Assembly: GCA_003694385.1 (NCBI GenBank)
Contig: RFKA01000032.1
Coordinates: 1 to 16,100, forward strand
DNA: 16,100 bases
DNA from: Candidatus Woesearchaeota archaeon
Lineage (GTDB): Archaea; Nanobdellota; Nanobdellia; Woesearchaeales; UBA525
Direction: 5' to 3'
Shown here: piece after piece, positions 1-16,100 of the stretch
How positions within the stretch are numbered: position 1 is the first letter of the stretch
Layout of the letters: the number at the start of each line of letters is the position of its first letter
Translations under genes and position numbers: made by a program
Notes under the pieces: model-generated
Told to the model about the DNA's origin: nothing
Databases searched by the model: none
What the model saw: the letters and a program-made list of their open reading frames with translations, nothing else

Positions 1-682
1 TCTCGAGCCTGTTCAAGAGGGCGAACTCGAGGCCAAACGAGAGGATATTCAAGTATTCCTTGCCGAGCTCCGAATCAACGGAGAGCGGGTGCGTCTCCTC
101 GTACTGCCAGTCACGCCCCGCGCTCTTCTGCATGTATTTCTGCGCAACTTTGTAGCCGACGCCGCGCGAGCCAGAGTGGATGACGAGCCACACATCGCCG
201 TCATGCTCGTCGAGCTCGATGAAGTGGTTGCCGCCGCCGAGCGTCCCGAGGTGTGCCTCGGCTCCTTGCCGGAAAAAGTTGAGGATGTCGCGGTCGTGCG
301 GTCCTTGGGCGAAGCGCTCGACGAGTTTCTTGTAGTCCTCACGCGTTTCCTTCGTGAGCTTGTGTATGTCGTTCTTGTTCCCCATTCCCATGGGTATGCG
401 TGCGCGGACGCGCTCATAGATGGCTTCGCGGTGCGCTTTACATTTCTTGAGCAGGTCTTTCCCGGAGAGCTTGACGGCAATCATGCCGCAGCCAATATCG
501 TAGCCTACCCACGCAGGCACGACGTGGTCGCGAGCGATGAGGACCGCGCCGATCGGCGCGACGTAACCCGCGTGCGCGTCCGGCATGAGCGCGGCAGCCG
601 TTACGTAGTCTTGGCTGCAGCAGTGCTCGAACTGCGCGAGCGTCGTCTCGTCAGGGTCGGGACAGTGAATGTGGCGCTCCAT
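1..682 (-). CDS. rtcB: RNA-splicing ligase RtcB, 3' end cut by window edge
   Basis: RtcB joins RNA 2',3'-cyclic phosphate (or 3'-phosphate) ends to 5'-hydroxyl ends using GTP and Mn2+, in tRNA splicing and RNA repair. Reading the minus strand from ATG at 682 gives 227 residues with no stop before position 1, so the C-terminal part lies outside the window. Visible motifs are MPDAHAGY (33-40), VGYDIGCGM (59-67, with the metal-binding Cys at 65), LGTLGGGNHFIEL (145-157) and VIHSGSRGVG (167-176). The short N-terminus and the GTLGGGNHFIE and HSGSRG spellings resemble the shorter bacterial-like RtcB more than the long archaeal form. A TTG four codons upstream is an alternative start; a TAA lies further upstream in frame. 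The gene diverges from the broken gene at 758. A 270-aa open frame on the opposite strand is a shadow of this gene. Confidence 0.93.
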   Translation of the reverse strand, partial: MERHIHCPDPDETTLAQFEHCCSQDYVTAAALMPDAHAGYVAPIGAVLIARDHVVPAWVGYDIGCGMIAVKLSGKDLLKKCKAHREAIYERVRARIPMGMGNKNDIHKLTKETREDYKKLVERFAQGPHDRDILNFFRQGAEAHLGTLGGGNHFIELDEHDGDVWLVIHSGSRGVGYKVAQKYMQKSAGRDWQYEETHPLSVDSELGKEYLNILSFGLEFALLNRLE

Positions 683-725
683 GCGCCACTGCAACGGGGC
701 GCGGTTAAAAAAAGTTTAGGAAAGA

Positions 726-737
726 CATTTTTAATAA
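726..737 (+). promoter_or_regulatory. TATA-like box for the broken gene at 758
   Basis: The A/T-rich segment ATTTTTAATAA sits about 25 nt before the ATG at 758, the spacing of a leaderless archaeal transcript. The same A/T-rich block (about 704-737) may also drive the divergent rtcB gene, but no box on the minus strand is clear enough to call. Confidence 0.4.
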
Positions 738-757
738 CGCTAGTATACCCTAAGAGT

Positions 758-1336
758 ATGGAGTACCTTTTGTTTGAGAACGGCGAGTTCTCCACGAGCC
801 TTCATTTGCTGAGCGCCGCGGCATCGTCGAGGGGGAGACTGACTTGTGGTCTGCGCGGCTCTCGACCGGGATATTCGGCTTGCCTGTACAAGCGGAAATA
901 GCGGTCCCAAGTCGCGCAATGAAGTCTTGCGCGCGGCGATGAGGGACTGCAGAAGCTCGTCGCGCTTGGCTTCGTGACGTGCCCTGTCTGCCAGCCAGCG
1001 TTAACGAGGGGGTTCTGGGACATAGTCCGGCCAGTAGTAAAAGTAACGTATGGTCTCCAAACGCTCGAAGGATTCCTTGATCGTGACGTGCTCCCATTCG
1101 ATGCGCGGCGTATCGCGTGGGAAGAGCTCCTGCACTTGACAGGCTTGCCGAGCCGCTTATACGTGCCGCGGGGTCTGCGCGAGGAAGACTTGGTGCTCCT
1201 CGAGGAGCGCTTTCTCAGGGCGCCGAACTCCCTCCCGTGGGGTTCTATGACCGTGACGCGCCAGGAAGAGGAGTATGCTCCCGCAGCAACCAACACGCAC
1301 ATTTATAAACAGTTCCGTGCTCGCGGGGACTGCTGA
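758..1336 (+). pseudogene. frameshifted gene remnant with a CPxC motif, family not recognised
   Basis: Protein-like sequence runs through this stretch but changes frame. Frame A starts with MEYLLFENGEFSTSLHL at 758. From about 808 the plausible reading moves to another frame (AERRGIVEGETDLWSARLS and onward) until a TGA at 940. From about 938 it returns to frame A (DEGLQKLVALGFVTCPVCQP and onward) and ends at TGA 1336. A second short excursion near 1237-1261 (VGFYDRDA) looks more natural than the frame A residues there. The 3' part is rich in conserved-looking Trp, Phe and Pro and has a CPVC pair, which could bind metal. Reconstructed length is about 190 aa. I do not recognise the family. Compensating -1 and +1 shifts suggest a decaying gene; sequencing indels are the alternative. 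A leaderless promoter precedes it, and the eS6 TATA box lies in its last codons. Confidence 0.5.
1302..1309 (+). promoter_or_regulatory. TATA box of the eS6 gene
   Basis: TTTATAAA is a near-ideal archaeal TATA box. Transcription would start near 1330-1335, giving a leader of roughly 60 nt before the ATG at 1393. This is unlike the leaderless neighbours and leaves room for translational control. Confidence 0.5.
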
Positions 1337-1377
1337 GCCACCTACAAGGGCAACCTCGTGAGAGGGGTTTTGGGCTC

Positions 1378-1384
1378 GGGAGGA
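1378..1384 (+). promoter_or_regulatory. Shine-Dalgarno site of eS6
   Basis: GGGAGGA lies 8 nt before the ATG at 1393. It supports that start and contrasts with the leaderless genes around it. Confidence 0.65.
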
Positions 1385-1392
1385 ACAAAAAA

Positions 1393-1863
1393 ATGGCAAT
1401 CAAACTGAACATTGGTGACCCGGCGAGCAAGAAGACGAAGCAATTCGAGCTCGACGACAACAACGCAAAGGGGTTGTACGGCAAGAAGCTCGGCGAGACT
1501 TTCAAGGGCGAGCTCGTCGACCTGCCGGGCTACGAATTCAAGATTACCGGCGGCAGCGATAACGCAGGGTTCCCAATGCGCCCCGACGTCGAAGGCACGC
1601 GCCGCGCAAAAATTCTCATCAGCCACAGCCTCGGCAATCGCAAGCGCCGCAAGGGGATGCGCCTCCGCAAAACTGTTGCAGGCAACACTGTATGTGAGCG
1701 CACCGCGCAAGTGAACGCCGTCGTCGTGAAGGCGGACAAGCAGTCGCTCTTCGAGGAGCCAGAGGAGAAGGAAGCTGAAGAGAAAGAAGCCGAAGGGAAG
1801 GAAGCTGAAGGAAAGGCGTCTCAGGACGAAGCGCCAGAGAAAAAGGAGGCGCCGAAAGAGTAG
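1393..1863 (+). CDS. rps6e: 30S ribosomal protein eS6 with acidic/Lys repeat tail
   Basis: Component of the archaeal small ribosomal subunit. The first ~115 residues are a full eS6 domain: KLNIGDP near the N-terminus, LPGYEFKITGGSDNAGFPMR at 44-63 (the family signature), then RPDVEG, the basic patch GNRKRRKGMRLRKTV (81-95) and GNTVCERTAQVN. Archaeal eS6 is often about 120-130 aa. This one is 156 aa because of a low-complexity tail at 120-156 made of KEAE-type repeats ending in EKKEAPKE. The start is fixed by a strong GGGAGGA site. It is convergent with the glutaredoxin gene, with only 6 nt between the stop codons. The upstream neighbour is a broken gene, so no ribosomal operon is seen here. 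Confidence 0.95.
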   Translation: MAIKLNIGDPASKKTKQFELDDNNAKGLYGKKLGETFKGELVDLPGYEFKITGGSDNAGFPMRPDVEGTRRAKILISHSLGNRKRRKGMRLRKTVAGNTVCERTAQVNAVVVKADKQSLFEEPEEKEAEEKEAEGKEAEGKASQDEAPEKKEAPKE

Positions 1864-1869
1864 GAAGCC

Positions 1870-2127
1870 TCACCCAACGTTTTTGAGTTCTTCTTTGTGC
1901 TTTTCTACATACGCGATGATATCGGCCGACTCTCCGAGCCACACGTCGCCATGCTTAATGACTGGCACGGTCGCGACGCCGCTCCGCTCACGCATCTCCT
2001 TCCGCAGCGGGTCATTCGGGTCGCGTTCAACATTGATTGCTTCGTAAGGGATATTGAGTTCTTCAAGCTTCGCCCGCACCTTCGCGCAGAACGGGCAGAA
2101 TTCGTATTGGTAAAGGATGAGCCCCAT
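1870..2127 (-). CDS. glutaredoxin-like thiol-disulfide oxidoreductase
   Basis: A small thioredoxin-fold protein of 85 aa that would reduce or isomerise disulfides in the cytoplasm. It has the CPFC active site (11-14) after a first beta strand (LILYQYEF), the cis-Pro motif TVPV (53-56) and the ESADI helix start (66-70), which normally helps bind glutathione or a similar thiol. The open frame extends 15 codons further upstream. I chose the ATG at 2127 because it begins the fold directly and lies about 27 nt from a TATA box at 2149-2161, as in a leaderless transcript. There is no signal peptide. The electron donor cannot be told from the sequence. It is convergent with eS6 and divergent from argS. 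Confidence 0.9.
   Translation of the reverse strand: MGLILYQYEFCPFCAKVRAKLEELNIPYEAINVERDPNDPLRKEMRERSGVATVPVIKHGDVWLGESADIIAYVEKHKEELKNVG
1879..1905 (+). terminator. possible T-rich terminator after eS6
   Basis: The plus strand shows GTTTTTGAGTTCTTCTTTGTGCTTTTC starting 16 nt after the eS6 stop. Archaeal RNA polymerase often terminates on runs of T without a hairpin. The tract lies inside the 3' end of the convergent glutaredoxin gene, so the two transcripts would overlap. Confidence 0.35.
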
Positions 2128-2148
2128 TGCGCTTCCATTGCAGGGGTC

Positions 2149-2161
2149 ATTTATAATGTTT
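2149..2161 (-). promoter_or_regulatory. TATA box of the glutaredoxin gene
   Basis: On the minus strand the site reads AACATTATAAATG, centred about 27 nt upstream of the ATG at 2127. It supports that ATG over the longer in-frame start at 2172. Confidence 0.5.
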
Positions 2162-2275
2162 GTGCAGGACATTGGGTGGGCTGTTAGGGCTTTGTTTTTG
2201 AGCGGATTCTCATGAAGGGTGCCGCGTGTGCGGTAGGTGCCGATCTAGAAGTGAAGATCGCACATGTTTACTGAA

Positions 2276-2287
2276 AGATTTATAATC
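2276..2287 (+). promoter_or_regulatory. TATA box of argS
   Basis: AGATTTATAATC is centred about 27 nt upstream of the tandem ATG codons at 2308 and 2311, indicating a leaderless or nearly leaderless argS mRNA. Confidence 0.55.
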
Positions 2288-2307
2288 TCTCCCGCTCCCT
2301 GCTGACA

Positions 2308-3999
2308 ATGATGCACAGTAAGGAACTCGTCGCGGAGACCATAAGCAAACAACTCGGCGTGGGGTGTGAGAGAGTCAGGGAGCTCCTCGAAGTCCCCCCT
2401 GATGAGAAGCTCGGTGATTACGCGATGCCGTGCTTCAGCTTCGCGAAAGAACTGAAGAAGGCTCCACCGGTGATTGCGCAGGAGTTCGCCCAAAAGCTTT
2501 CGAGTAAGGACTTCTCCGTTGAGGTGTCGGGACCGTACCTGAATATTCGCCTCGAGAGGCAACGCCTCGCAAAGCGCGTACTCACCGCGGCTCGCGAAGA
2601 AAACTATGGAAAAGGCAGCCAAGGGGAGCGCGTTATGGTTGAGTTCTCCCAACCGAACACGCACAAGGCTTTCCACGCCGGGCACCTGCGCGGAACGAGT
2701 ATGGGGGAGGCGCTCGCACGCATCCTCTCCTTTGCTGGCTGGGACGTCGTGCGTGCAAACTACAGTGGGGACACAGGCATGCACGTCGCGCGCTGGCTCT
2801 GGTGCTACACGCGCTTCCACGCTGGAGAGCAGCCGCCAAAGCAGGGGAGGGGCGCGTGGCTCGCGAGCATCTACGTTGATGCGATGCGGCGGCTCGCCGA
2901 GCAACCCGCGCTCCAGGAGGAAGCAGACAAGATTAATCTCGCGCTCGACAAAGGCGAGGACGAGGAGCTCATGGCGCTCTGGAGAAAAACGCGGCAGTGG
3001 AGCATTGACGAGTTCGAAGCGATTTACCGTGAGCTCGACACGCACTTTGACATCTGGATTTTTGAGCGGGAAGTCGAGGCGCGCGCGCGGGAGGTCGCGC
3101 AGGAACTCCTCGCGAAGGGGATTGCTGAGAAGAGTGACGGCGCAGTCATTGTGAACCTCGAGGAGGAAGGGCTTGGCGTTTGGGTCTTGCTGCGGCAGGA
3201 CGGCACGCCCTTGTACAGCGCGAAGGACCTTGCGCTCGCTGAGAAGAAGTTCACCGAGCACAAGATTGACCGCGCCATCTACGTCGTCGGGAAGGACCAG
3301 GAGCTCTATTTCAAACAACTCTTCACCACGCTGAAGCGCTGGGGCTTCTCTCAGGCCGAGCGCTGCTTCCACCTCTGCTTTGAGATGGTGCGCCTCCCCG
3401 ATGGGAAGATGAGTTCGCGGACGGGGAAGAACATCCTCTACACTGACGTCCGCGATGAGGTGTTCGCGTACACGGAGGAGCAAATCAGAGCACGCCACGC
3501 TGACTGGCCTGAGGAGAAAATCAGGGAGACGGTTCACGCGGTTGGTGTCTGTGCGTTGAAGTTCGAGATGATTGTGCGGGACATCAATAAGTCCATCATC
3601 TTCGAGACGAAGCGTGTCTGCGACTTCGAGGGGGACACGGGGCCGTACGTCCAGTATACGCACGCGCGCTGTAATAGTATTCTCAGGAAGCTTGGGCGCG
3701 CACCGGACATGCGGCGAGCAGTGTTCTCTTCACTGAGTGAGAGCGAGTACCGCCTCGTAAAAGAGCTCGAGCGCTTCCCCAGCATCATCTCCGAGGTTGC
3801 TACGTCACTCGAGCCAGCGCCGCTCGCTCGCTACGCGCTCGCGCTCGCGAAGGCATTCAACACGTTCTACCACGAGTGTAAAGTCATCGGCGCAGAGCAA
3901 GGAGTGGAGGATGCGCGCGCCCTCCTCGTCGACGCGACGCGGCTCGTGCTTGCGAGGGCGCTCACGCTCCTCGGTATCAAGGCGCCGAAAGAAATGTAA
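2308..3999 (+). CDS. argS: arginyl-tRNA synthetase
   Basis: Class I aminoacyl-tRNA synthetase that charges tRNA-Arg with arginine using ATP. The 563-aa length is normal for the family. The N-terminal domain (about 1-100) resembles the Arg-specific tRNA-contacting domain. The Rossmann fold starts with VEFSQPNTHKAFHAGHLRGT (111-130), where HAGH (123-126) is the HIGH motif. The KMSKS loop is KMSSR (367-371), followed by TGKN. The C-terminal helical anticodon-binding (DALR-type) domain begins near GPYVQYTHARCNSILRK (about 447 onward). Two adjacent ATGs (2308, 2311) are possible starts and the promoter spacing fits either. A 472-aa open frame on the opposite strand is a codon-bias shadow. The gene stands alone: divergent from the glutaredoxin and convergent with the zinc-ribbon gene. 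Confidence 0.97.
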   Translation: MMHSKELVAETISKQLGVGCERVRELLEVPPDEKLGDYAMPCFSFAKELKKAPPVIAQEFAQKLSSKDFSVEVSGPYLNIRLERQRLAKRVLTAAREENYGKGSQGERVMVEFSQPNTHKAFHAGHLRGTSMGEALARILSFAGWDVVRANYSGDTGMHVARWLWCYTRFHAGEQPPKQGRGAWLASIYVDAMRRLAEQPALQEEADKINLALDKGEDEELMALWRKTRQWSIDEFEAIYRELDTHFDIWIFEREVEARAREVAQELLAKGIAEKSDGAVIVNLEEEGLGVWVLLRQDGTPLYSAKDLALAEKKFTEHKIDRAIYVVGKDQELYFKQLFTTLKRWGFSQAERCFHLCFEMVRLPDGKMSSRTGKNILYTDVRDEVFAYTEEQIRARHADWPEEKIRETVHAVGVCALKFEMIVRDINKSIIFETKRVCDFEGDTGPYVQYTHARCNSILRKLGRAPDMRRAVFSSLSESEYRLVKELERFPSIISEVATSLEPAPLARYALALAKAFNTFYHECKVIGAEQGVEDARALLVDATRLVLARALTLLGIKAPKEM

Positions 4000-4063
4000 A
4001 CAGCAGGTGGTGAGGAGGACAAGTGCTGAGCGGTGAGTGCTATGCTGACAAGCAGGGCGGTGT

Positions 4064-4213
4064 TTATTCGCCGTGTTCGTGCCGGTACTTACGGAGCCGC
4101 TCGAGGCACGCGTCGCAGTAGTAGGTTTCGGTTTTCCCCTCAACGCGTTTGCCACAGTTCCGGCACGTATTGATGACTTTATACCCAGAGATTTTCGTGA
4201 AGTGTTTCGACAT
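4064..4213 (-). CDS. small zinc-ribbon protein (49 aa)
   Basis: A 49-residue protein, MSKHFTKISGYKVINTCRNC and onward, with two CxxC knuckles: C17-x2-C20 and C34-x2-C37, spaced as in a zinc ribbon. The C-terminus is basic and helical (LERLRKYRHEHGE). The exact job is unknown; such mini zinc ribbons occur in archaeal RNA- and DNA-binding proteins. The ATG at 4213 was chosen because a strong TATA box (CTTATAAAG on the minus strand) lies about 28 nt upstream. The open frame extends far upstream only as a shadow of the divergent helicase gene. It is convergent with argS, 64 nt away. Confidence 0.75.
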   Translation of the reverse strand: MSKHFTKISGYKVINTCRNCGKRVEGKTETYYCDACLERLRKYRHEHGE

Positions 4214-4233
4214 TGACGTGAAGAGAAGGAAGC

Positions 4234-4248
4234 ACACTTTATAAGTGT
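4234..4248 (-). promoter_or_regulatory. TATA box inside a 15-bp palindrome
   Basis: The sequence ACACTT-TAT-AAGTGT is a perfect 6+6 inverted repeat around a TAT centre. It contains the TATA box of the zinc-ribbon gene. A dimeric repressor bound here would block the transcription factors. The companion box for the divergent helicase is 15 nt further right. Confidence 0.5.
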
Positions 4249-4261
4249 TGGGCTGGGAAGA

Positions 4262-4270
4262 CATAAAAAC
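4262..4270 (+). promoter_or_regulatory. TATA-like box of the helicase fragment
   Basis: CATAAAAAC lies about 25 nt before the ATG at 4292, so the truncated helicase still has an intact-looking leaderless promoter. Confidence 0.45.
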
Positions 4271-4291
4271 CTCTTCGCTTCGCGCCATAAC

Positions 4292-4978
4292 ATGACTGAT
4301 AAGCCTCTCGCGCAGTATAAGGAGCAGATTCCCAAGCCCGTCTTCGCGCTTCTCGAGAAACGAGGGTTCACGAGTTTGCGTCCGTGTCAATGGAAGGCTA
4401 TCGAGGAAGGACTGTTTGCTGATGCAAACCTGCTCGTTTGCACGCCAACAGCGTCGGGGAAGACGCTTGTCGGGGAGCTCGCCGCGTTGCACGCCGTGCT
4501 GCGCGACAAGGGGAAAGCTGTTTACGTCGTTCCCCTGCGCGCACTCGCGGCTGAGAAGCACAAGCAGTTCACAAAGGATTATCCGCAGCTCTCGATTGCA
4601 CTCGCGTCTGGAGAAACGGATAGTGCTGATGCATACCTCGCGCGGTATGATATCATCGTCGCGACGAGTGAGAAGCTCGACTCGTTGCTTCGGCACCGCG
4701 CGCCGTGGATTTCGCGCGTTAAGACGCTCATTATTGACGAGATCCACTTACTGAACGACGCCTCGCGCGGCCCGACGCTCGAAGTGGTCGTGACACTCCT
4801 GCGCAGGATTCTTGATGTGCAGGTCGTCGGCTTGAGCGCGACGATCGGCAACGCTGAGGAGCTGGCTGACTGGCTCGACGCGAAACTCGTCAAGGATGCG
4901 TGGCGCCCTGTCCGCCTCGACAAGGGCGTGTACCTTGACGGGAGAATCACATTCTGGCATCACGGTCGAGAACCATAG
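4292..4978 (+). pseudogene. Ski2/Hel308-type superfamily 2 helicase, truncated after RecA domain 1
   Basis: Hel308-type enzymes are 3'-5' DNA helicases acting at stalled forks, usually about 700 aa. Here only 228 aa are present. Motifs of the first RecA domain are complete and in order: LRPCQWKAI (29-37, Q-like motif), TPTASGKT (51-58, Walker A), VPLRALAAEK (80-89, Ia), ATSEKLD (124-130), DEIH (149-152, Walker B) and SATIGN (182-187, motif III). The match continues to WRPVRLDKGVYLDG and then ends in HHGREP and a stop. RecA domain 2 (motifs IV-VI), the winged helix and the ratchet domain are absent. The next 95 nt do not continue the family in any forward frame I read. It is probably a gene remnant. 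A functional stand-alone domain, or an assembly join, cannot be excluded. Confidence 0.75.
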
Positions 4979-5420: not shown

Positions 5421-5509
5421 GTTTCATCAACGATGAGCCTGAGGATGCGCTCGCCAAAAACTGCTGGCTCCTGTTTCATGTTTTCAGGCTTCATGCTGTC
5501 GAGTTTCAT
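5417..5509 (-). CDS. 30-aa peptide between two ATGA overlaps
   Basis: The peptide reads MKLDSMKPENMKQEP and continues AVFGERILRLIVDET. It starts with three in-frame copies of a five-residue unit beginning MK, so three AUGs could serve as starts, followed by a short amphipathic helix-like segment. Its ATG overlaps the stop of the dockerin-like gene (ATGA) and its TGA overlaps the start of the DUF4870-like gene (ATGA). This exact double coupling is the main evidence that it is translated. It could be a real small protein or a leader that passes ribosomes from the first to the third gene. It resembles no family I know. Confidence 0.55.
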   Translation of the reverse strand: MKLDSMKPENMKQEPAVFGERILRLIVDET

Positions 5510-5515
5510 GCTGTC
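5490..5515. repeat. 11-nt direct repeat with 15-nt period
   Basis: TTCATGCTGTC occurs at 5490-5500 and 5505-5515. On the minus strand it encodes the repeated MK-containing five-residue unit of the small peptide and spans the dockerin-gene stop. It suggests that the peptide arose by tandem duplication. Confidence 0.6.
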
Positions 5516-6024
5516 ACTCCTGGGAAGACGGGGATGTCGTGGTTGTAGAGGAGTCCTGTGTAGGCGGTGAGGTCTGCCTCGTCTACGGTGCCATCAGCGG
5601 TGAGGTCGTAGATGTGTTCGCTGCAGGGGCCTGTTTCAATCGCTTTCCCGAGCAGTTTTGCATCTGCTCGCGTGAGCACCCCGTCACCGTCATAGTCATA
5701 GAGGCTCGTGACTGCGCCATAGAGTTCCCGCACATCATCTTTCGTGAGGAGGCCGTCCTGGTTCCAGTCACAACGTTCGCCGCAGCTTACGCGCCCTTGC
5801 ATAACGTCAACGACATCGTAGTAGTCAACGTGCCCGTCGCGGTTCATGTCGAGGTCGCTTGCGTCAACTGTCGGGCAAGCGATCGTGAGTTCTTGCTCTG
5901 GTAGCGTCACCATGCCTGTGAGGAGAAATGACGGGCCCGCGTCTGCTGAGACGATGATGATTGTGAATCCGCTAATGCTCGCCACGACGGTGAGGAGGAC
6001 GAGCGCTGCGAAGGGCGTTTCCAT
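5506..6024 (-). CDS. exported protein with four dockerin/EF-hand-type calcium loops
   Basis: A 172-aa protein. Residues 1-27 form a hydrophobic signal peptide or N-terminal anchor (METPFAALVLLTVVASISGF and onward). The rest carries four DxNxDGxxxxxD loops: D59-x-N61-x-D63-G64 to D70, D86 to D97, D110-x-D112-x-D114-G to D121, and D140 to D151. Each precedes a short helix, as in type I dockerins and EF-hands. Residues C50, C81, C85 and C134 could form disulfides outside the cell. In bacteria dockerins bind cohesins; no cohesin is seen here, so ligand and role are unknown. ATG 6024 is preferred to a GTG at 6075 because AGAGGTG lies a short distance upstream and the signal peptide starts cleanly. 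It is first in a coupled operon. Confidence 0.8.
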   Translation of the reverse strand: METPFAALVLLTVVASISGFTIIIVSADAGPSFLLTGMVTLPEQELTIACPTVDASDLDMNRDGHVDYYDVVDVMQGRVSCGERCDWNQDGLLTKDDVRELYGAVTSLYDYDGDGVLTRADAKLLGKAIETGPCSEHIYDLTADGTVDEADLTAYTGLLYNHDIPVFPGVTA

Positions 6025-6105
6025 TGTCGGGGATTGTGCGCCACCTCTTTTTCCCGGGAGACCCGAACAGCGCACAAGTACGTACTAGTATACTCTTTAC
6101 TATAT

Positions 6106-8090: not shown

Positions 8091-8276
8091 TGGTTCTCGC
8101 ACAAGGTTATCCTCGAGGAGAAACTGAAAAAAAGAGGCCTGCAAGGTGACGAGGTCTCCAATATGACATAATACAGCCACGGCGGATACGCAAAAATGTA
8201 ACTCCTCAAGAAAAACAACAAATATAAACCACAGATGATTCGCTTGGCAATTCCGAAGGGGGGATACTATGAATAG
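8091..8276 (+). other. coding-like stretch interrupted by in-frame stops
   Basis: In the 239-nt gap before the giant gene, one plus frame reads WFSHKVILEEKLKKRGLQ and onward to a TAA at 8169, then YSHGGYAKM to a TAA at 8199, then LLKKNNKYKPQMIRLAIPKG to a TAG at 8274. Its composition looks protein-like, with charged helices and Gly-Tyr motifs, but it has no start and two internal stops. It may be a gene remnant. Its 3' end overlaps the ribosome site and first codons of the giant gene. Chance cannot be excluded over so short a length. Confidence 0.22.
8219..8264 (+). promoter_or_regulatory. TATA box and G-rich ribosome site of the giant surface gene
   Basis: AAATATAAACC (8219-8229) is a good TATA box about 44 nt before the ATG at 8269, giving a leader of roughly 15-20 nt. 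GGGGGGA at 8258-8264, 4 nt before the ATG, resembles a ribosome-binding site with rather tight spacing. Confidence 0.5.
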
Positions 8277-11200
8277 AATCAGTTTCACAGCAATCGTTTT
8301 TCTGATAATCTTAGCAACGAGTGTCGCAGCAACTGCAGATAGGGAAAGCCAGCCAGACCTCAACACGCTCTGCGTTGACCATATCTGCGGCGACGGAATC
8401 ATCGACCTAGGAGAGGAATGCGACGACGGGAACACCATTGACGGCGACGGCTGTAGTGCGACGTGCACAGAAGAGCCAGTCATCACTTTTTGCAAGTTCG
8501 ACGCAGACAGCGGCGCTCCCATCCCTGGCTGGAACTTGTACCTCGAGCGCAAGATTGGTGACATCTGGGTGTACTGGTACGGCGGAACAACGGGCGACGA
8601 CGGCTGCTTCGGAACAACAATCCCCACCGGCGTGTACCGCGCGGGTGAAAATCTCACTGCGGGCTGGGAACTCGACCGCGTCCTCATCGACGGCAACCCA
8701 ACAACGCTCCTCAACGACGAATGGACACAGCCATTCGCCGTGACCACACACGACGACCACAGCGTCTGGTTCTATAACAACAGAATCCCCTATTGCGGTG
8801 ATGGCATCCTAGATGAAGGCGAGCAGTGCGACGACGGAAACAACGAGAACGGCGATGGGTGCGACGCGGAGTGCGTCGATGAGCTCTGCGTTCCGGGAGA
8901 GTGCGGCGGCGACAAGTGCACAATCGGCAAGTGCGTCCCCTACGCCGGCTGCGTCTACGACTTCGTGACGTGTGACGACGGCAACGCCTGCACAACAGAC
9001 CGATGCGACCCCACAAGCGGCTGCCAATACGACGAAGTCAACACAGACGACGACATACAATGCACGAACGACGAGTGCGACCCCACAACAGGAAATATCA
9101 CACACGAGCCAGACGACCTCGCCTGCGACGACAACAACGCCTGCACAGCAGAATACTGCGACGCAGAAGAAGGCTGCAACTACGAACCAATCAACTGCGA
9201 CGACGGAGACGAATGCACAGTCGACACCTGCGACCCAAAAACCGGCTGCGCACACGAAGAAATACCAGACTGCCGCAACTACTGCGGCGACGGCATCGTG
9301 AACGGTGATGAAGAGTGCGACGACGGGAACACCATTGACGGCGACGGCTGCAGCAGCACCTGCAAGCAAGAAACCTGCACCCTCCGCATCTGCAAACGAG
9401 TCGACGCAACAGGCGACGGCGCAACAGCGGACGACGAACTCTACACCCAAGGATGGAGCTTCGCCATCATCCCTGAAGAAGGAGAGAACATCCCCGCGCG
9501 CGCAGACGACGACGGCTGCGATGAAGTCGAGCTCGAACCAGGAAGCTACGGAGTAAAAGAAGCAAGCAGGCATGGCTGGCGATTCATCGAACGCACAGTC
9601 GACGGACACCCCAGCCCAAACAGCCAGAAAGTCACCGCGTGCACAAACAAGACAGTCACCTTCTACAACTACCCAGAAGAATGCGGCAACGGCATCATCG
9701 ACCAAGGAGAAGAATGCGACCTCGGAGAAGCGAATGGCGAGCAATGCGACCCACCCTATAATGGTAGTTGCGCGTACTGCACAGAAGCATGCGAATGGGA
9801 ACGTATCCCGGGACCCTACTGTGGCGACGGCGTCAAGAACGGCGGCGAGGAGTGCGACGGCACGGACGGCGTTAACGAGTTCCAAGTGTGCTCCAAGGAG
9901 TGCACCATCACCTGGGAGTACGCCTGCGAAGACCTCCTCCACCTCGACGTCCACAAGAAGAAAAAGTCATTTATTGACATCGTGAGTACGAGCGACGGGG
10001 CAACGACGACCGTCCTCGAGATCGATGAGAAACTCTGGAACGCGCTCGCAGCTGATGCGGAAGGAACATTGTACAGCATACGGCGGACACCCAAGGGTAC
10101 CTCGGGCGACCTCGTCATCATCGAGGAGGATGGAACGCTCACACCCATCGGGCCCACGGGGCTGCCGGGTGGCTCAATCGCGATGGAGTTCGCCCCTGAC
10201 GGAACGCTCTATCTCGCGAACGATAAGACGGACAAGCTCTACACGCTCAGCACGACAACGGGGCTGGCGACGGAAGTCGGCGATCTCCCCTTTGGTGTGA
10301 GCGGCGGCGACCTCGCCGTGACAGAGTTCAATGAGCTTGTGTATGTGCGCTTGGACGGCAGCGTGTTCGTCGTGGACCCCGAGACGCTTGCGTACGAGCT
10401 CGCGGGGAACCTTCCTCCAGGCTCTTATACGAGCAGCGCGTACTTTAAGGGCACGCACTACGCCCTTGACCGTTCGCATGACAAGCTCTACACCTTCACG
10501 ATCGAGCCGTGGAGCTACAGCTTCATCGGCAACGAGGGCGAGTTCGCGTATGGTGATGGCTCAAGCTGCCCGATGGACCACTACTGCGGCGACGGCGTAA
10601 CGAACGAAGAGGAAGAGTGCGATCTCGGCGAACAGAACGGCGAGCCCTGCGACCCCCCGTACGGAGGGAGCTGCACGTACTGCTCTGAGCGCTGCGGGAG
10701 CACGGAGATTCCCGGGCCCTACTGCGGCGACGGCGTCCGCCAGCTTCCTTACGAGGAGTGCGACGGCACGGACGGCGTCGGGGAGCATGAAACCTGCACG
10801 GAGGACTGTACGCTCACGCAGGTTCCGTACTGCGGTGACAATGTTGTTAATCAGCCGAGTGAAGAGTGTGATGGCGACGATACTCCTCCGGGCGCGTACT
10901 GCCTCGAGAACTGCACGATTGTCTACCCTGAGTGCGGCAATGGCGTCGTCGAGCCAGGAGAACAGTGTGACGACGGGAACCGCGTCGAGCGCGACGGGTG
11001 CGATAATGACTGTGCCCGCGAGGAGCTCACGTGTGTTGAGGCAAACCTCGCCGGCTACCTCCACGCGGAGATTGATGGTGGTGAGGTCACCGTGACGAAC
11101 GACTGGACGGCGCCATTCGACGTTGGCGTCGCTTCATACAAACGCCCGACCGAGTTCACGGACGACGAAGTACTCTTCGACTACGACACGGGCATCGTCC

Positions 11201-14200
11201 CAGGCGAAGGCAGTGTTGAGTTCAGCATCAAGGTGCCCGCGTGTATGTACGAGCTCGACGTGTTCTGCGGCGAGGTGCTCTTCAGCCACGACCACGTGCG
11301 CTACGGCAAGAGGAAGATTGCATACGAGATCGTTGGTGATGACTACTGCACAAGCTGGTGCGGAGACGGCGTTGTTGACGATGACGAGGAGTGCGAGGCT
11401 TCTGTGCCGCTCGAGGAAGGCGTCTGCAATGAGATCTGCGAGATCGAGTACCCCGTGTGCGGCAATGGCGAGGTAGAGTTCGGCGAGTCTTGCGATCGCG
11501 GCGACGAGAACGGGAGAGCGTGCTCGCCTGGCTACGGCGAAACCTGCACGTATTGCACGAGCTCATGCGCTGAAGAGACGCTCACGGGACCGTTCTGTGG
11601 CGACGGCGTCAAGAACGGCGGCGAGGAGTGCGACGGCACGGACGGCGTCCCTGAAGGGAAGGTTTGCTCTGCCTCGTGTGAACTCGAAGACGTCCCGAAC
11701 TGCGGTGACGGCGTTGAGCAGGGCGCCGAGCAGTGTGACTTTGGCGACGAGAATGGCGTCCCCTGCTGGCCTTCCTATGGCAAGTCTTGCGAGTGGTGCA
11801 CGGAGAGTTGCGAACTCGTGACTGAGGAAGGCGGCTTTTGTGGTGATGACGTCATCGAGGCTGACGAGGAGTGCGATGAGGGTGACGCGAATGGTGAGCG
11901 CTGCTTCGCGGCGTACGGCGAGACGTGTACCTACTGTAGCAGCGAGTGCACGGAAGTCGAACAGGAAGGGCCGTACTGCGGCGACGGCGTCCGTCAGTAC
12001 TTCGAGGAAGAGTGTGACCTTGGTGCAGAGAATGGTGAGAGTTGCGACCCGGCGTATGGTGAGAGGTGTGAATCGTGCACCTCATCCTGTCGGCGCCTCT
12101 TAGAGGTTGGGCCGTACTGTGGCGACGGCGTCAAGAACGGCGACGAGGAATGCGATGGCACGGACGGCGTCACGGAAGGGTATTACTGCACGGGTGAGTG
12201 CACGCTCGCAATCGATGAGCCAGGTCCGACTTGCGGTGATGGCAAGCAAGAAGAAGGCGAGGAGTGTGATGATGGCAACCGCGTTGACCGCGACGGGTGC
12301 AGCAGCTCCTGCCTCAGAGAAGAGCTGTCGTGTCCTGAAGCGATTCGCGCCGGCTATCTCACAGCAACAATTGATGGTGGCGAGGTCACCGTGACGAACG
12401 ACTGGAAGGCGCCATTCGACGTTGGCGCAGCAACGTATGAGCGCCCGACCGAGTTCACGGACGACGAAGTACTCTTCGACTACGACACGGGCGTCGTCCC
12501 GAGCGAAGGCAGCACCACGTTCAGCGTGCAAGTGCCTGAGTGCGCGTACGAGCTCGACGTGTTCTGCGGCGAGGTTATCGACGAGCGGGAGGGCCAGCGT
12601 TACGGTGAACGAAAAATTGCCTACGAACTGAACAATGGCGTGGCTTGCGCAGTCTGCGGCGATGGTCAGGTGAACCAGGAGAGTGAGGAATGTGATGGGA
12701 CTGATGGCGTCCCCGAAGGGTTCACGTGTACCGAGGAGTGCACACTCGAAGAGCTGCCCGAGGCGGTCTGCGGCGACGGCAACCGTGATGCTGGAGAAGC
12801 CTGCGACCTCGGCGAGGAGAACGGAAATGTCTGCACGCCTGCTTACGGCGACACCTGCGCTTACTGCAGCGAGTCCTGCACGGAAGTAACGCTTGAAGGC
12901 CCCTATTGTGGCGACGACATCAAGAATGGGCCGGAGCAGTGTGACGGGGCAGACCTCGGAGGGGTCACGTGTGAGGACTTGGGCTTCAGCGGCGGCACGC
13001 TGAGCTGCGAGGGCTGCGACTTCGTCGTGGTGGATTGTGTCCGTGGAGCGCCGTTCTGCGGTGACGGCTTCGTCGATGCCGGAGAAGAATGTGATGCTGG
13101 CCCCGCGAATGGGGAAGAATGCACTCCGGGCTATGGCGAGACGTGTACCTACTGTAGCAGCGAGTGCACGGAAGTCGAACTGGAAGGGCCGTACTGCGGC
13201 GACGGCATCGTGAATGGTGATGAAGAGTGCGACGGCGGCGTCGGAGCAGACGAGCTCGTCTGTAATGACGCTTGCGAACTCGTCTCCGCGCCTAGCGTGA
13301 CGCTCTCCGTCCTGCTCCAGGAAGGGAACACCTTCACGTTCAACTGCGTCGCGACCGGTTTCGATGACCCGACGTTTGATTGGACAATGGGCGACGGCAC
13401 AAGCTATGAAGGCCCGGCAGAGATTGTGCACTCCTATCACGAGAATGGTGACTACACGGTGACCTGTACTGCGAGCGAGGGCAGTATGAGCGCGAGTGAC
13501 TGGACGGAAGTGAGTGTTGATTCCTGCGTCACGTACACGCTGACGATCACCGACCCATCACCAGGCGAGGAAGTCTTCGGTGGAGAAGAGCTCACCGTGT
13601 TCGGGACGCTCACCGCTGAGACGAACACGAATGGTGAGCGCGTCGACGTGAATGGCCTGCCGACGTGGGTGCTCATGGACGATGCGTGGAGCAAGGTGCT
13701 CAGCGTACCAGACCGTGACGGGCCATTCACTATCGAGGCGGTGCACGAGAACACGTGTGGCGTGACAGTGAGTGACACCGTGACAGTTGACGTCATTGGC
13801 TCGTCCGTTGAGGAAGAGTCTGTGACGCAATCGACGCGCGGCGGTGGAGGAGGGCGTAACCACTGCGGCAGCGGTTATCAGTGGAGTGGTGATGGCTGCG
13901 AGCCCGTTGCTCAGCCTGAAGTCGTCGAGGAAAGCAAGGAGGCGCAAGAGACCAGTGGCGGCACGGGCACTCCTGTTGTCGCAGCGAGCAATGACCATGA
14001 AACTGGCACGGGAAGCGAGACGCCAAGCGTCGAGACAAGCAGCGAGGATGTCGAAGAAGAGGACAATGCTGGAGAAGAAGCCAGCGCCGAAGCGAAGGAG
14101 GACCTCGTAACGGGCGCGGCCATTGGTGGCGGTGTACCGGCATTGCTCTGGCTCTTCATCGCGCTCGGACTCGTCGGCCTGGGTTTCATCGGCTATTACG

Positions 14201-14214
14201 TCGTTAAACTATGA
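8269..14214 (+). CDS. giant Cys-rich, C-terminally anchored surface protein (1981 aa)
   Basis: It begins with a signal peptide (MNRISFTAIVFLIILATSVA). About 22 repeats of the type CGDG-x(4-5)-GEECD..(D)GN/GTDG..C..C follow, from residue ~39 to ~1660; this matches the Cys-rich DUF4215/Myxococcus-type repeat. Between them lie SpaA-like beta domains at ~75-170 and ~372-468, a run of CDDGNACTxDxCD-type repeats at ~205-335, a propeller-like region of short beta repeats at ~552-765 (SIAMEFAPDGTLYLAND), and a unique domain present twice (~922-1025 and ~1355-1458). A PKD-like domain (~1676-1752, FDWTMGDGTSYEG), a beta domain (~1753-1846), an acidic Ser/Glu-rich stalk and a C-terminal transmembrane helix (~1957-1979) with a short basic end complete it. 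Dense paired Cys imply disulfides outside the cell. The likely role is adhesion or cell-surface structure. It overlaps the next gene by ATGA. Confidence 0.92.
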   Translation: MNRISFTAIVFLIILATSVAATADRESQPDLNTLCVDHICGDGIIDLGEECDDGNTIDGDGCSATCTEEPVITFCKFDADSGAPIPGWNLYLERKIGDIWVYWYGGTTGDDGCFGTTIPTGVYRAGENLTAGWELDRVLIDGNPTTLLNDEWTQPFAVTTHDDHSVWFYNNRIPYCGDGILDEGEQCDDGNNENGDGCDAECVDELCVPGECGGDKCTIGKCVPYAGCVYDFVTCDDGNACTTDRCDPTSGCQYDEVNTDDDIQCTNDECDPTTGNITHEPDDLACDDNNACTAEYCDAEEGCNYEPINCDDGDECTVDTCDPKTGCAHEEIPDCRNYCGDGIVNGDEECDDGNTIDGDGCSSTCKQETCTLRICKRVDATGDGATADDELYTQGWSFAIIPEEGENIPARADDDGCDEVELEPGSYGVKEASRHGWRFIERTVDGHPSPNSQKVTACTNKTVTFYNYPEECGNGIIDQGEECDLGEANGEQCDPPYNGSCAYCTEACEWERIPGPYCGDGVKNGGEECDGTDGVNEFQVCSKECTITWEYACEDLLHLDVHKKKKSFIDIVSTSDGATTTVLEIDEKLWNALAADAEGTLYSIRRTPKGTSGDLVIIEEDGTLTPIGPTGLPGGSIAMEFAPDGTLYLANDKTDKLYTLSTTTGLATEVGDLPFGVSGGDLAVTEFNELVYVRLDGSVFVVDPETLAYELAGNLPPGSYTSSAYFKGTHYALDRSHDKLYTFTIEPWSYSFIGNEGEFAYGDGSSCPMDHYCGDGVTNEEEECDLGEQNGEPCDPPYGGSCTYCSERCGSTEIPGPYCGDGVRQLPYEECDGTDGVGEHETCTEDCTLTQVPYCGDNVVNQPSEECDGDDTPPGAYCLENCTIVYPECGNGVVEPGEQCDDGNRVERDGCDNDCAREELTCVEANLAGYLHAEIDGGEVTVTNDWTAPFDVGVASYKRPTEFTDDEVLFDYDTGIVPGEGSVEFSIKVPACMYELDVFCGEVLFSHDHVRYGKRKIAYEIVGDDYCTSWCGDGVVDDDEECEASVPLEEGVCNEICEIEYPVCGNGEVEFGESCDRGDENGRACSPGYGETCTYCTSSCAEETLTGPFCGDGVKNGGEECDGTDGVPEGKVCSASCELEDVPNCGDGVEQGAEQCDFGDENGVPCWPSYGKSCEWCTESCELVTEEGGFCGDDVIEADEECDEGDANGERCFAAYGETCTYCSSECTEVEQEGPYCGDGVRQYFEEECDLGAENGESCDPAYGERCESCTSSCRRLLEVGPYCGDGVKNGDEECDGTDGVTEGYYCTGECTLAIDEPGPTCGDGKQEEGEECDDGNRVDRDGCSSSCLREELSCPEAIRAGYLTATIDGGEVTVTNDWKAPFDVGAATYERPTEFTDDEVLFDYDTGVVPSEGSTTFSVQVPECAYELDVFCGEVIDEREGQRYGERKIAYELNNGVACAVCGDGQVNQESEECDGTDGVPEGFTCTEECTLEELPEAVCGDGNRDAGEACDLGEENGNVCTPAYGDTCAYCSESCTEVTLEGPYCGDDIKNGPEQCDGADLGGVTCEDLGFSGGTLSCEGCDFVVVDCVRGAPFCGDGFVDAGEECDAGPANGEECTPGYGETCTYCSSECTEVELEGPYCGDGIVNGDEECDGGVGADELVCNDACELVSAPSVTLSVLLQEGNTFTFNCVATGFDDPTFDWTMGDGTSYEGPAEIVHSYHENGDYTVTCTASEGSMSASDWTEVSVDSCVTYTLTITDPSPGEEVFGGEELTVFGTLTAETNTNGERVDVNGLPTWVLMDDAWSKVLSVPDRDGPFTIEAVHENTCGVTVSDTVTVDVIGSSVEEESVTQSTRGGGGGRNHCGSGYQWSGDGCEPVAQPEVVEESKEAQETSGGTGTPVVAASNDHETGTGSETPSVETSSEDVEEEDNAGEEASAEAKEDLVTGAAIGGGVPALLWLFIALGLVGLGFIGYYVVKL
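9820..9872 (+). repeat. 53-nt repeat, copy 1 (copy 2 at 11596-11648)
   Basis: The 53 nt encoding CGDGVKNGGEECDGTDGV are identical at 9820-9872 and 11596-11648. A third copy near 12118-12170 has only a few changes. Synonymous positions are also conserved, so this is recent duplication or gene conversion and not just protein-level constraint. Confidence 0.8.
10930..11345 (+). repeat. large intragenic duplication, copy 1
   Basis: It encodes a Cys-rich repeat (DDGNRVERDGC) plus the ~100-aa unique domain (GGEVTVTNDW, then FTDDEVLFDYDTG). Copy 2 is at about 12230-12650. In the core (11083 onward versus 12382 onward) the offset is exactly 1299 nt, or 433 codons, and long blocks are identical at the nucleotide level. 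Confidence 0.85.
11921..11990 (+). repeat. 70-nt repeat, copy 1 (copy 2 at 13139-13208)
   Basis: These 70 nt, coding for ETCTYCSSECTEVE plus the start of the next CGDG repeat, match 13139-13208 with only two mismatches. The offset is 1218 nt, or 406 codons. Confidence 0.8.
12230..12650 (+). repeat. large intragenic duplication, copy 2
   Basis: Second copy of the Cys-rich repeat plus unique domain (DDGNRVDRDGC, GGEVTVTNDW). It differs from copy 1 mainly in the last third, where the segment after FCGEV has diverged. Confidence 0.85.
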
Positions 14215-15014: not shown

Positions 15015-15025
15015 GTTTATAAATG
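15015..15025 (+). promoter_or_regulatory. TATA box of the cytochrome b5-domain gene
   Basis: GTTTATAAATG is centred about 26 nt before the ATG at 15045, indicating a leaderless mRNA and its own promoter separate from the upstream operon. Confidence 0.55.
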
Positions 15026-15044: not shown

Positions 15045-16100
15045 ATGCACTTATTCATGAAGTCGCTCCTCGCAGGCCTCCTGACTGGCGTTGTTGGTCT
15101 CGCGGCGATTCTCACCATCGCGAACGTGCCAGATGCACCCGAAGCGGCCGTCCTAACAATCGAGTCGGCACAGGAAACACTCTCTCTGAAGGCGCTGGCC
15201 ACTCACAGCATTCCCACCAACTGCTGGACGGTTATCAATGGAAAAGTGTACGACCTCAGCAGCTACATCTCTTCCCACCCGGGAGGGCCGGTCATCACGC
15301 AAGCGTGTGGGAAAGACGCGACGGAGCTCTTCAACACGAAAGGTGGGGCGGGGCGACCGCATAGCGCGTTCGCTCAGGAGTTGCTCGAGCAGTTCCTCAT
15401 CGGTAGCATCGGCGAAGTGCCCGAGGAGGAAGCACCCGTTACAGAGGAGGTGAAGACGCCGCCAGCACCGGCAGTTCCTGACAAGCTCCAGTCTGCGCTC
15501 GCGTTCTTCTCTGACCCTGCTATTCAGTCCTACCGCATGGTCGTCGAGAATGAAGGGAGGCTCTACACGGTGACCTACGAGGACGACACGCTTACTGTCA
15601 CAGAGGGTGTCGTGTCGAAACCAGCGGGAGAGAGCTGTATTAGGGACGTAGAGATAGCTGCGCATGCTTCCACGAGTGACTGCTGGATCATGATCGGAAG
15701 CGACGTGTATGACGTGACGACGTACCTGCCCGTACATCCTGGTGGGCCAGAGGAGATAAGACCGTTCTGCGGCGGGGATGCGACAGAGGCGTTCGCGACA
15801 AAGAACGGGAAGGGCACGCATAGCGACTTCGCGAGGAAAACGTTGGCTGCTCTCCGCGTTGGCGATGTCTGTGAAGGAACGGAGGTGAGAACAGATATCC
15901 CCGAACCACCAGTTCCTGAGATGCCAGAACCTCCTCTCACCGAGGAAGCCGCTATTGACGCGTACAGTTTGGAAAGAGTTGCACTGCATGATAGACGGAC
16001 CGACTGCTGGCTCATCATCGACGGAGAAATCTACGACGTCACAAACTACATCCCCATCCACCCAGGCGGAAAAACAATGATCACAAACAACTGCGGAACA
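15045..16100 (+). CDS. exported protein with three tandem cytochrome b5-type heme domains, 3' end cut
   Basis: 352 codons are open to the window edge. Residues ~6-26 are a signal peptide or anchor (SLLAGLLTGVVGLAAILTIA). Domain 1 has NCW at C60, HPGG with H78, QACG with C88 and the second heme His H106 (RPHSAF). Domain 2 has DCW, HPGG with H231, FCGGDA and H259 (GTHSDF). The H-to-H spacing is 28 in both. Domain 3 begins with DCW and HPGG at H339 and is cut before its second His. Each domain carries a Cys before the first strand and a Cys ten residues after the HPGG His, likely a structural disulfide typical of exported microbial b5 domains. A non-heme linker (~148-195) separates domains 1 and 2; Pro/Glu linkers join the rest. 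The role would be electron transfer or heme binding outside the membrane. The start is set by promoter spacing; M5 is an alternative. Confidence 0.92.
   Translation, partial: MHLFMKSLLAGLLTGVVGLAAILTIANVPDAPEAAVLTIESAQETLSLKALATHSIPTNCWTVINGKVYDLSSYISSHPGGPVITQACGKDATELFNTKGGAGRPHSAFAQELLEQFLIGSIGEVPEEEAPVTEEVKTPPAPAVPDKLQSALAFFSDPAIQSYRMVVENEGRLYTVTYEDDTLTVTEGVVSKPAGESCIRDVEIAAHASTSDCWIMIGSDVYDVTTYLPVHPGGPEEIRPFCGGDATEAFATKNGKGTHSDFARKTLAALRVGDVCEGTEVRTDIPEPPVPEMPEPPLTEEAAIDAYSLERVALHDRRTDCWLIIDGEIYDVTNYIPIHPGGKTMITNNCGT

Follow-up and report, generated by a model that had tools for sequence, protein, structure and literature searches.

The last open reading frame (ORF) in a 16,100-nucleotide stretch of DNA from a Candidatus Woesearchaeota archaeon (positions 1 to 16,100 of contig RFKA01000032.1, assembly GCA_003694385.1; hereafter the window) encodes a chain of cytochrome b5 domains that is predicted from its sequence to be exported. 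With moderate confidence we read this chain as a flexible, membrane-tethered b-heme arm that transfers electrons and uses scavenged heme, and its dedicated membrane partner is probably a protein of the DoxX family. More tentatively, we propose that heme-auxotrophic archaea may possess a two-part surface redox system, in which a dedicated DoxX subfamily would withdraw membrane electrons, and a modular b5 arm, exported and loaded with scavenged heme, would deliver them to a partner cell or to an acceptor in the surroundings.

The ORF (15045-16100, + strand) is 352 residues long and open up to the end of the window. The window is the entire 16100-base contig C38 of this genome (G000), so the gene is truncated by the assembly and not by the choice of window. 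The initial annotation had claimed at least three b5 domains on one chain, and a search with PF00173 bears this out: domains 1, 2 and 3 score 67.8, 65.5 and 48.7 bits (curated cut-off 23.7), and the whole protein reaches 171.6 bits, far above chance. Domain 1 (residues 47-124; 15183-15416, +) and domain 2 (residues 202-277; 15648-15875, +) each carry, as claimed, two axial His residues 28 apart (H78/H106 and H231/H259) and a Cys pair (C60/C88 and C213/C242). The first part of domain 3 (residues 308-352; 15966-16100, +) shows C321, H339 and C350; the contig end cuts the domain, and the place of its second axial His lies beyond. In all, the ORF has Cys at 60, 88, 198, 213, 242, 276, 321 and 350, and His at 2, 54, 78, 106, 207, 231, 259, 315 and 339. 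An additional pair that the initial annotation did not describe, C198/C276, brackets domain 2; among the relatives compared it is shared by P0002, P0004, P0008, P0122 and P0126, and is not found in P0123, P0124, P0125 and P0127. The idea that the His spacing and Cys pairs are special did not survive comparison with 1CXY, the structure of cytochrome b558 from Ectothiorhodospira vacuolata. This solved prokaryotic b5 has Cys at both aligned places and the same 28-residue spacing, so these are ordinary features.

Export is a prediction; the chain has a single N-terminal hydrophobic segment identified by hydropathy (residues 3-30; 15051-15134, +), which may be a signal or an anchor and agrees with the secreted or anchored chain originally described. 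The window domains are predicted to adopt the b5 fold, with domain 1 folding as 1CXY does. Between domains 1 and 2, structure prediction places a small alpha-beta-beta-beta insert (residues 146-188; 15480-15608, +), which aligns in P0002 and for which a Pfam search gave no family. The domains are ordered, parts of the linkers fall below 50 in the predicted local distance difference test (pLDDT), and the predicted template modelling score (pTM) is 0.40. The multi-b-heme wire first suggested is therefore unsupported in a packed form; the model fits beads on a string, and we rejected a rigid multi-heme nanowire despite the order within the domains. No CXXCH heme-attachment motif occurs in the window ORF or in ten b5 chains checked, and an NCBIfam scan gave no name to the window ORF.

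The missing 3' end of the gene is very probably carried by contig C59 of the same genome, as judged from sequence comparison. This contig holds, in order, an Ig-like end, a fourth b5 domain, a cupredoxin-fold tail without Cys and a DoxX gene, and the whole chain would thus very probably have four b5 domains. The initial annotation had proposed extending the contig to count further domains and to look for a C-terminal anchor; this probable 3' piece would add one b5 domain, and hydropathy revealed no such anchor on it. We infer the join of C38 and C59, which match different, consecutive parts of P0002 and of the profile. Judged by P0002, the stretch missing between them would be about 107 residues (some 320 bases). 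It is very unlikely that the contigs represent two separate genes, leaving the window chain without DoxX behind it. In favour of this reading, the contigs show no overlap, the sequence between them is unassembled, and an unseen second copy is possible in a genome that is 86.7% complete; against it, each contig fits another consecutive part of P0002 and the profile, the frame on C59 stays open up to the edge of that contig, and no second copy of either chain part was found in the available sequence. The tail matches a cupredoxin fold, with Cupredoxin_1 below its cut-off (17.3 of 27 bits). A blue-copper tail was rejected, as the Cys copper ligand is missing and neither the tail of C59 nor that of P0125 contains any Cys. 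The NCBIfam scan gave no name to the C59 piece either.

DoxX recurs beside b5 genes. The window's genome has two DoxX genes (E up to 0.001), each 3' of a b5 gene: on C59 the gene directly follows the b5 piece, with stop and start overlapping, and on contig C106 the second directly follows a single-b5 gene. Both exceed the cut-off for PF07681 (47.4 and 32.9 bits, respectively, against 23.6), and the profile PF04173 for DoxD, of the thiosulfate:quinone oxidoreductase DoxD/DoxA, gives 23.2 and 18.3 bits (cut-off 22.7). On C106 (positions 1-4550, - strand) the b5 and DoxX genes lie ahead of ATP synthase genes on the same strand (V_ATPase_I and an ATP-synt_C frame of five hairpins, truncated where the contig stops), separated from them by a 102-residue frame without a Pfam family and 233 bases. 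Across a sample of the phylum, PF00173 is present in 34 of 371 genomes. In these, 37 b5 places were examined, counting both ends of the presumed C38-C59 gene separately; most places were viewed with about 1.5 kb on each side, and a b5 ORF was recognised at all except that of G182, where the match was under the cut-off. DoxX adjoins on the same strand at 15 places in 14 of the 34 genomes, downstream of b5 at 14 and upstream at one (G069). Its reading is split in two in G174. Outside this sample the pair occurs in G009 and G036, from the order, and at the named locus L055. In G030 b5 and DoxX lie on separate contigs.

Furthermore, the b5-linked DoxX proteins appear from their sequences to form a distinct subfamily. 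In a tree of 18 linked rows (17 loci and the fusion P0027) and 28 rows from loci without b5, all 18 fall within one 19-row branch with support 96/99. The b5-link label changes twice on the tree, compared with a mean of 14.6 in shuffles, and none of 500 shuffles was as low; the linked group does not fall strictly to one side of a single branch, and the bootstrap had yet to settle. Six private positions (Q24, P36, N53, H80, I84 and R96) are found in 18/18 linked and 0/27 other proteins, with L097 left out of both sets and with columns of distant rows possibly misaligned. Lysine and arginine are concentrated at the N-terminus (36 in 179 residues) and in the loop between helices 2 and 3 (21 in 126), whereas loop 1 has 13 in 425. 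In loop 3 there are 18, equal to the number of invariant R96 residues, along with 23 aspartates and glutamates, and the C-terminus is neutral. This distribution suggests that both lysine- and arginine-rich parts face inwards, a topology that would place Q24, P36 and R96-D97 outside and H80 within helix 3.

Several findings weigh against a b5-DoxX arm. Twenty of the 34 b5-bearing genomes have no adjacent DoxX within the stretches available, and the pair is seen in only 1 of 47 named contigs (L055). The nineteenth row of the DoxX branch, L097, belongs to the same family and has the signature residues of this DoxX group, but no b5 gene was recognised next to it. For the window gene itself, a DoxX gene behind it depends on the presumed join across the unassembled gap between C38 and C59, and four other genomes of the genus gave no PF00173 match.

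Fusions add to the evidence from neighbouring genes. P0027 joins DoxX to an extra hydrophobic segment (145-172) and two b5 domains; these domains would lie outside because DoxX usually has four helices, if that holds here (a simple scan saw three). In P0128, a Ferric_reduct part (PF01794, 33.9 bits, cut-off 28) precedes four b5 domains, and the nearest NCBIfam model for this membrane part is MsrQ, under its cut-off (29.7 of 130 bits). P0017, P0019, P0054 and two archaeal proteins, from G070 and G119, share another N-terminal head: about three hydrophobic segments bearing two His roughly 15 residues apart, for which a Pfam search gave no convincing family. The G070 and G119 proteins were rejected as DoxX-b5 fusions, since they lack a DoxX profile match and have this two-His membrane part instead. 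This head, perhaps a membrane heme module, is found in environmental proteins and in two genomes belonging to the class (L107:1069-1860, +; L103:1351-2148, -). The b5 arm is thus fused to or paired with varied membrane partners, some from redox families, which speaks more for electron transfer than for simple storage.

The heme itself would come from outside, since HemB was not found in any of the 34 b5-bearing genomes of the phylum sample, including the window's (controls positive in 11 of 14). Searches of the window's genome for COX1 and for cytochrome bd oxidase found neither (controls positive in 8 and 10 of 14). Absences in this genome alone are weak evidence because it is an incomplete draft (889,737 bases, 130 contigs). 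The b heme of b5 is bound non-covalently and can be taken up without a maturation system, so cytochrome c maturation is not needed. The lack of HemB, together with several heme sites on one flexible exported chain, would also suit heme capture or storage, in which the surface chain of a heme auxotroph would bind several hemes from the environment and move them inwards, with DoxX helping to release or carry heme. We consider this rather unlikely, as the fusions with DoxX and with an MsrQ-like membrane part point to redox work, and bis-His b5 sites hold heme firmly.

In the electron-transfer arm that we prefer, we infer that the b5 domains lie outside and are loaded with heme, and likewise the flow of electrons and its direction. 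The chain would be anchored at its N-terminus and face outwards, with very probably four bis-His b5 domains on flexible linkers, an Ig-like module and, at its end, a cupredoxin-fold domain without the Cys copper ligand. The DoxX membrane protein of the distinct subfamily, presumably encoded directly behind the chain, may take electrons from quinol or thiols at the outer membrane face and hand them to the b5 hemes. Through collisions along the arm, these scavenged hemes would then relay electrons to an external acceptor or to one on a partner cell; the flow could also run in reverse.

The setting of the gene bears on a further alternative, in which b5 together with DoxX would act as an oxidoreductase at the outer face, clearing oxidants or maintaining the disulfide state of Cys-rich surface proteins, with no route for energy or electron export. 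A Cys-rich surface protein is indeed encoded upstream, DoxX relatives occur in thiol and stress systems, and the model nearest to the P0128 membrane part, although under its cut-off, is MsrQ, a partner in methionine sulfoxide repair. No thioredoxin-like or MsrP-like partner was seen beside these genes, whose neighbours were not scanned systematically, and we regard this role as improbable. The surface protein (8269-14214, +) has 1981 residues, with five DUF4215 stretches, Dicty_CTDC repeats and a PKD domain, and is followed immediately by an overlapping gene for 255 residues. The initial annotation was right that giant surface-protein genes adjoin the b5 gene; a functional tie was rejected for both, with nothing beyond proximity to speak for it. 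A TATA-like element, TTTATAAAT (15016-15024, +), lies just 5' of the ATG as a possible promoter of the b5 gene's own; a sigma-70 scan found nothing, although such a bacterial-type scan says little for an archaeon. Together with DoxX as the recurring neighbour, this element makes the giant surface-protein genes an improbable partner. Other genes on C38 include RtcB, ribosomal protein S6e and arginyl-tRNA synthetase, and a 189-residue protein (5506-6075, -) has dockerin type I and EF-hand matches.

Chains of this type are found in other genomes. Three to five b5 domains occur in 38 of 156 relatives among the proteins listed, and in the relatives search 11 of 58 genomes, the window's included, have PF00173. 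Within the phylum sample, the window's genome and G253 (contig C131, two in 379 residues) are the only ones with more than one b5 per frame. A profile search of the order gave a match in 239 of 352 genomes; the matches listed mostly concern Ig-like columns in long proteins of other kinds, and the listed chains with more than one b5 match come from the same two genomes. Of the 47 named loci, four encode a pair of b5 domains within a single ORF; they belong to Kerfeldbacteria, Falkowbacteria, an uncultured bacterium and a bacterium of the Parcubacteria group. The four-b5 chain P0123, close to the P0002 kind, is labelled as from an Acidobacteriota metagenome-assembled genome, possibly through a binning error. 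In precomputed Pfam matches, P0145 and P0146 join b5 domains to flavoprotein domains of the fumarate reductase or succinate dehydrogenase type. A similar PepSY-like C-terminal piece is present in many b5 chains (P0002, P0004, P0008, P0009, P0122, P0123, P0124, P0126, P0127, P0130, P0134 and P0019). It is called PepSY-like only, since the two pieces searched gave weak matches to the PepSY model (E 0.063 and 0.002; 14 and 18.9 bits; cut-off 24).

DPANN archaea and Patescibacteria have been described as ancestrally without electron transport chains (Beam et al. 2020, PMC7507113), and the terms 'DoxX' and 'multiheme' do not occur in that text. For such groups the recurring b5-DoxX pair offers a concrete, testable candidate for electron exchange across membranes, and a reason for organisms without HemB to need heme. 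In a candidate-phylum bacterium, Vampirococcus, cytochrome b5 is listed among the electron carriers, with suggested roles in oxidative stress or reoxidation (PMC8080830); excerpts of further papers on cytochrome b5 and the candidate phyla radiation mention only cytochrome b561. A Desulfatiglans membrane protein combines cytochrome c7 with a cytoplasmic b5 domain (PMC13343851). Our literature search, outside which most subscription papers fall, found nothing on cytochrome b5-like proteins in Woesearchaeota and no paper on b5-DoxX pairing, which is weak evidence of absence. Within the literature searched, the architecture of the chain and its tie to a DoxX subfamily are new, and the hallmark residues are ordinary.

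Comparison with known systems helps to place these proteins. 1CXY is a single domain of 90 residues, whereas the window gene combines several b5 domains with other modules in one anchored chain. The C59 and C106 neighbours belong to the DoxX family, which includes DoxD and MauE relatives, and the b5-linked members differ from other DoxX proteins in their private positions and adjoining b5 gene. Two DoxX family proteins of Haloferax volcanii rise 1.60- and 12.6-fold with Fe(III) compared with O2 (PMC13104607), which is only a loose parallel. P0128 has a membrane part like that of MsrQ and ferric reductase-like membrane heme proteins, and the window gene has its single hydrophobic segment instead. 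The tail on C59 differs from plastocyanin and other cupredoxins in lacking Cys. Unlike the multiheme c-type cytochromes of extracellular electron transfer, the b5 chain has no CXXCH, holds its heme non-covalently, has another fold and has partly disordered linkers; by analogy, it may resemble them in carrying several heme sites on one exported polypeptide.
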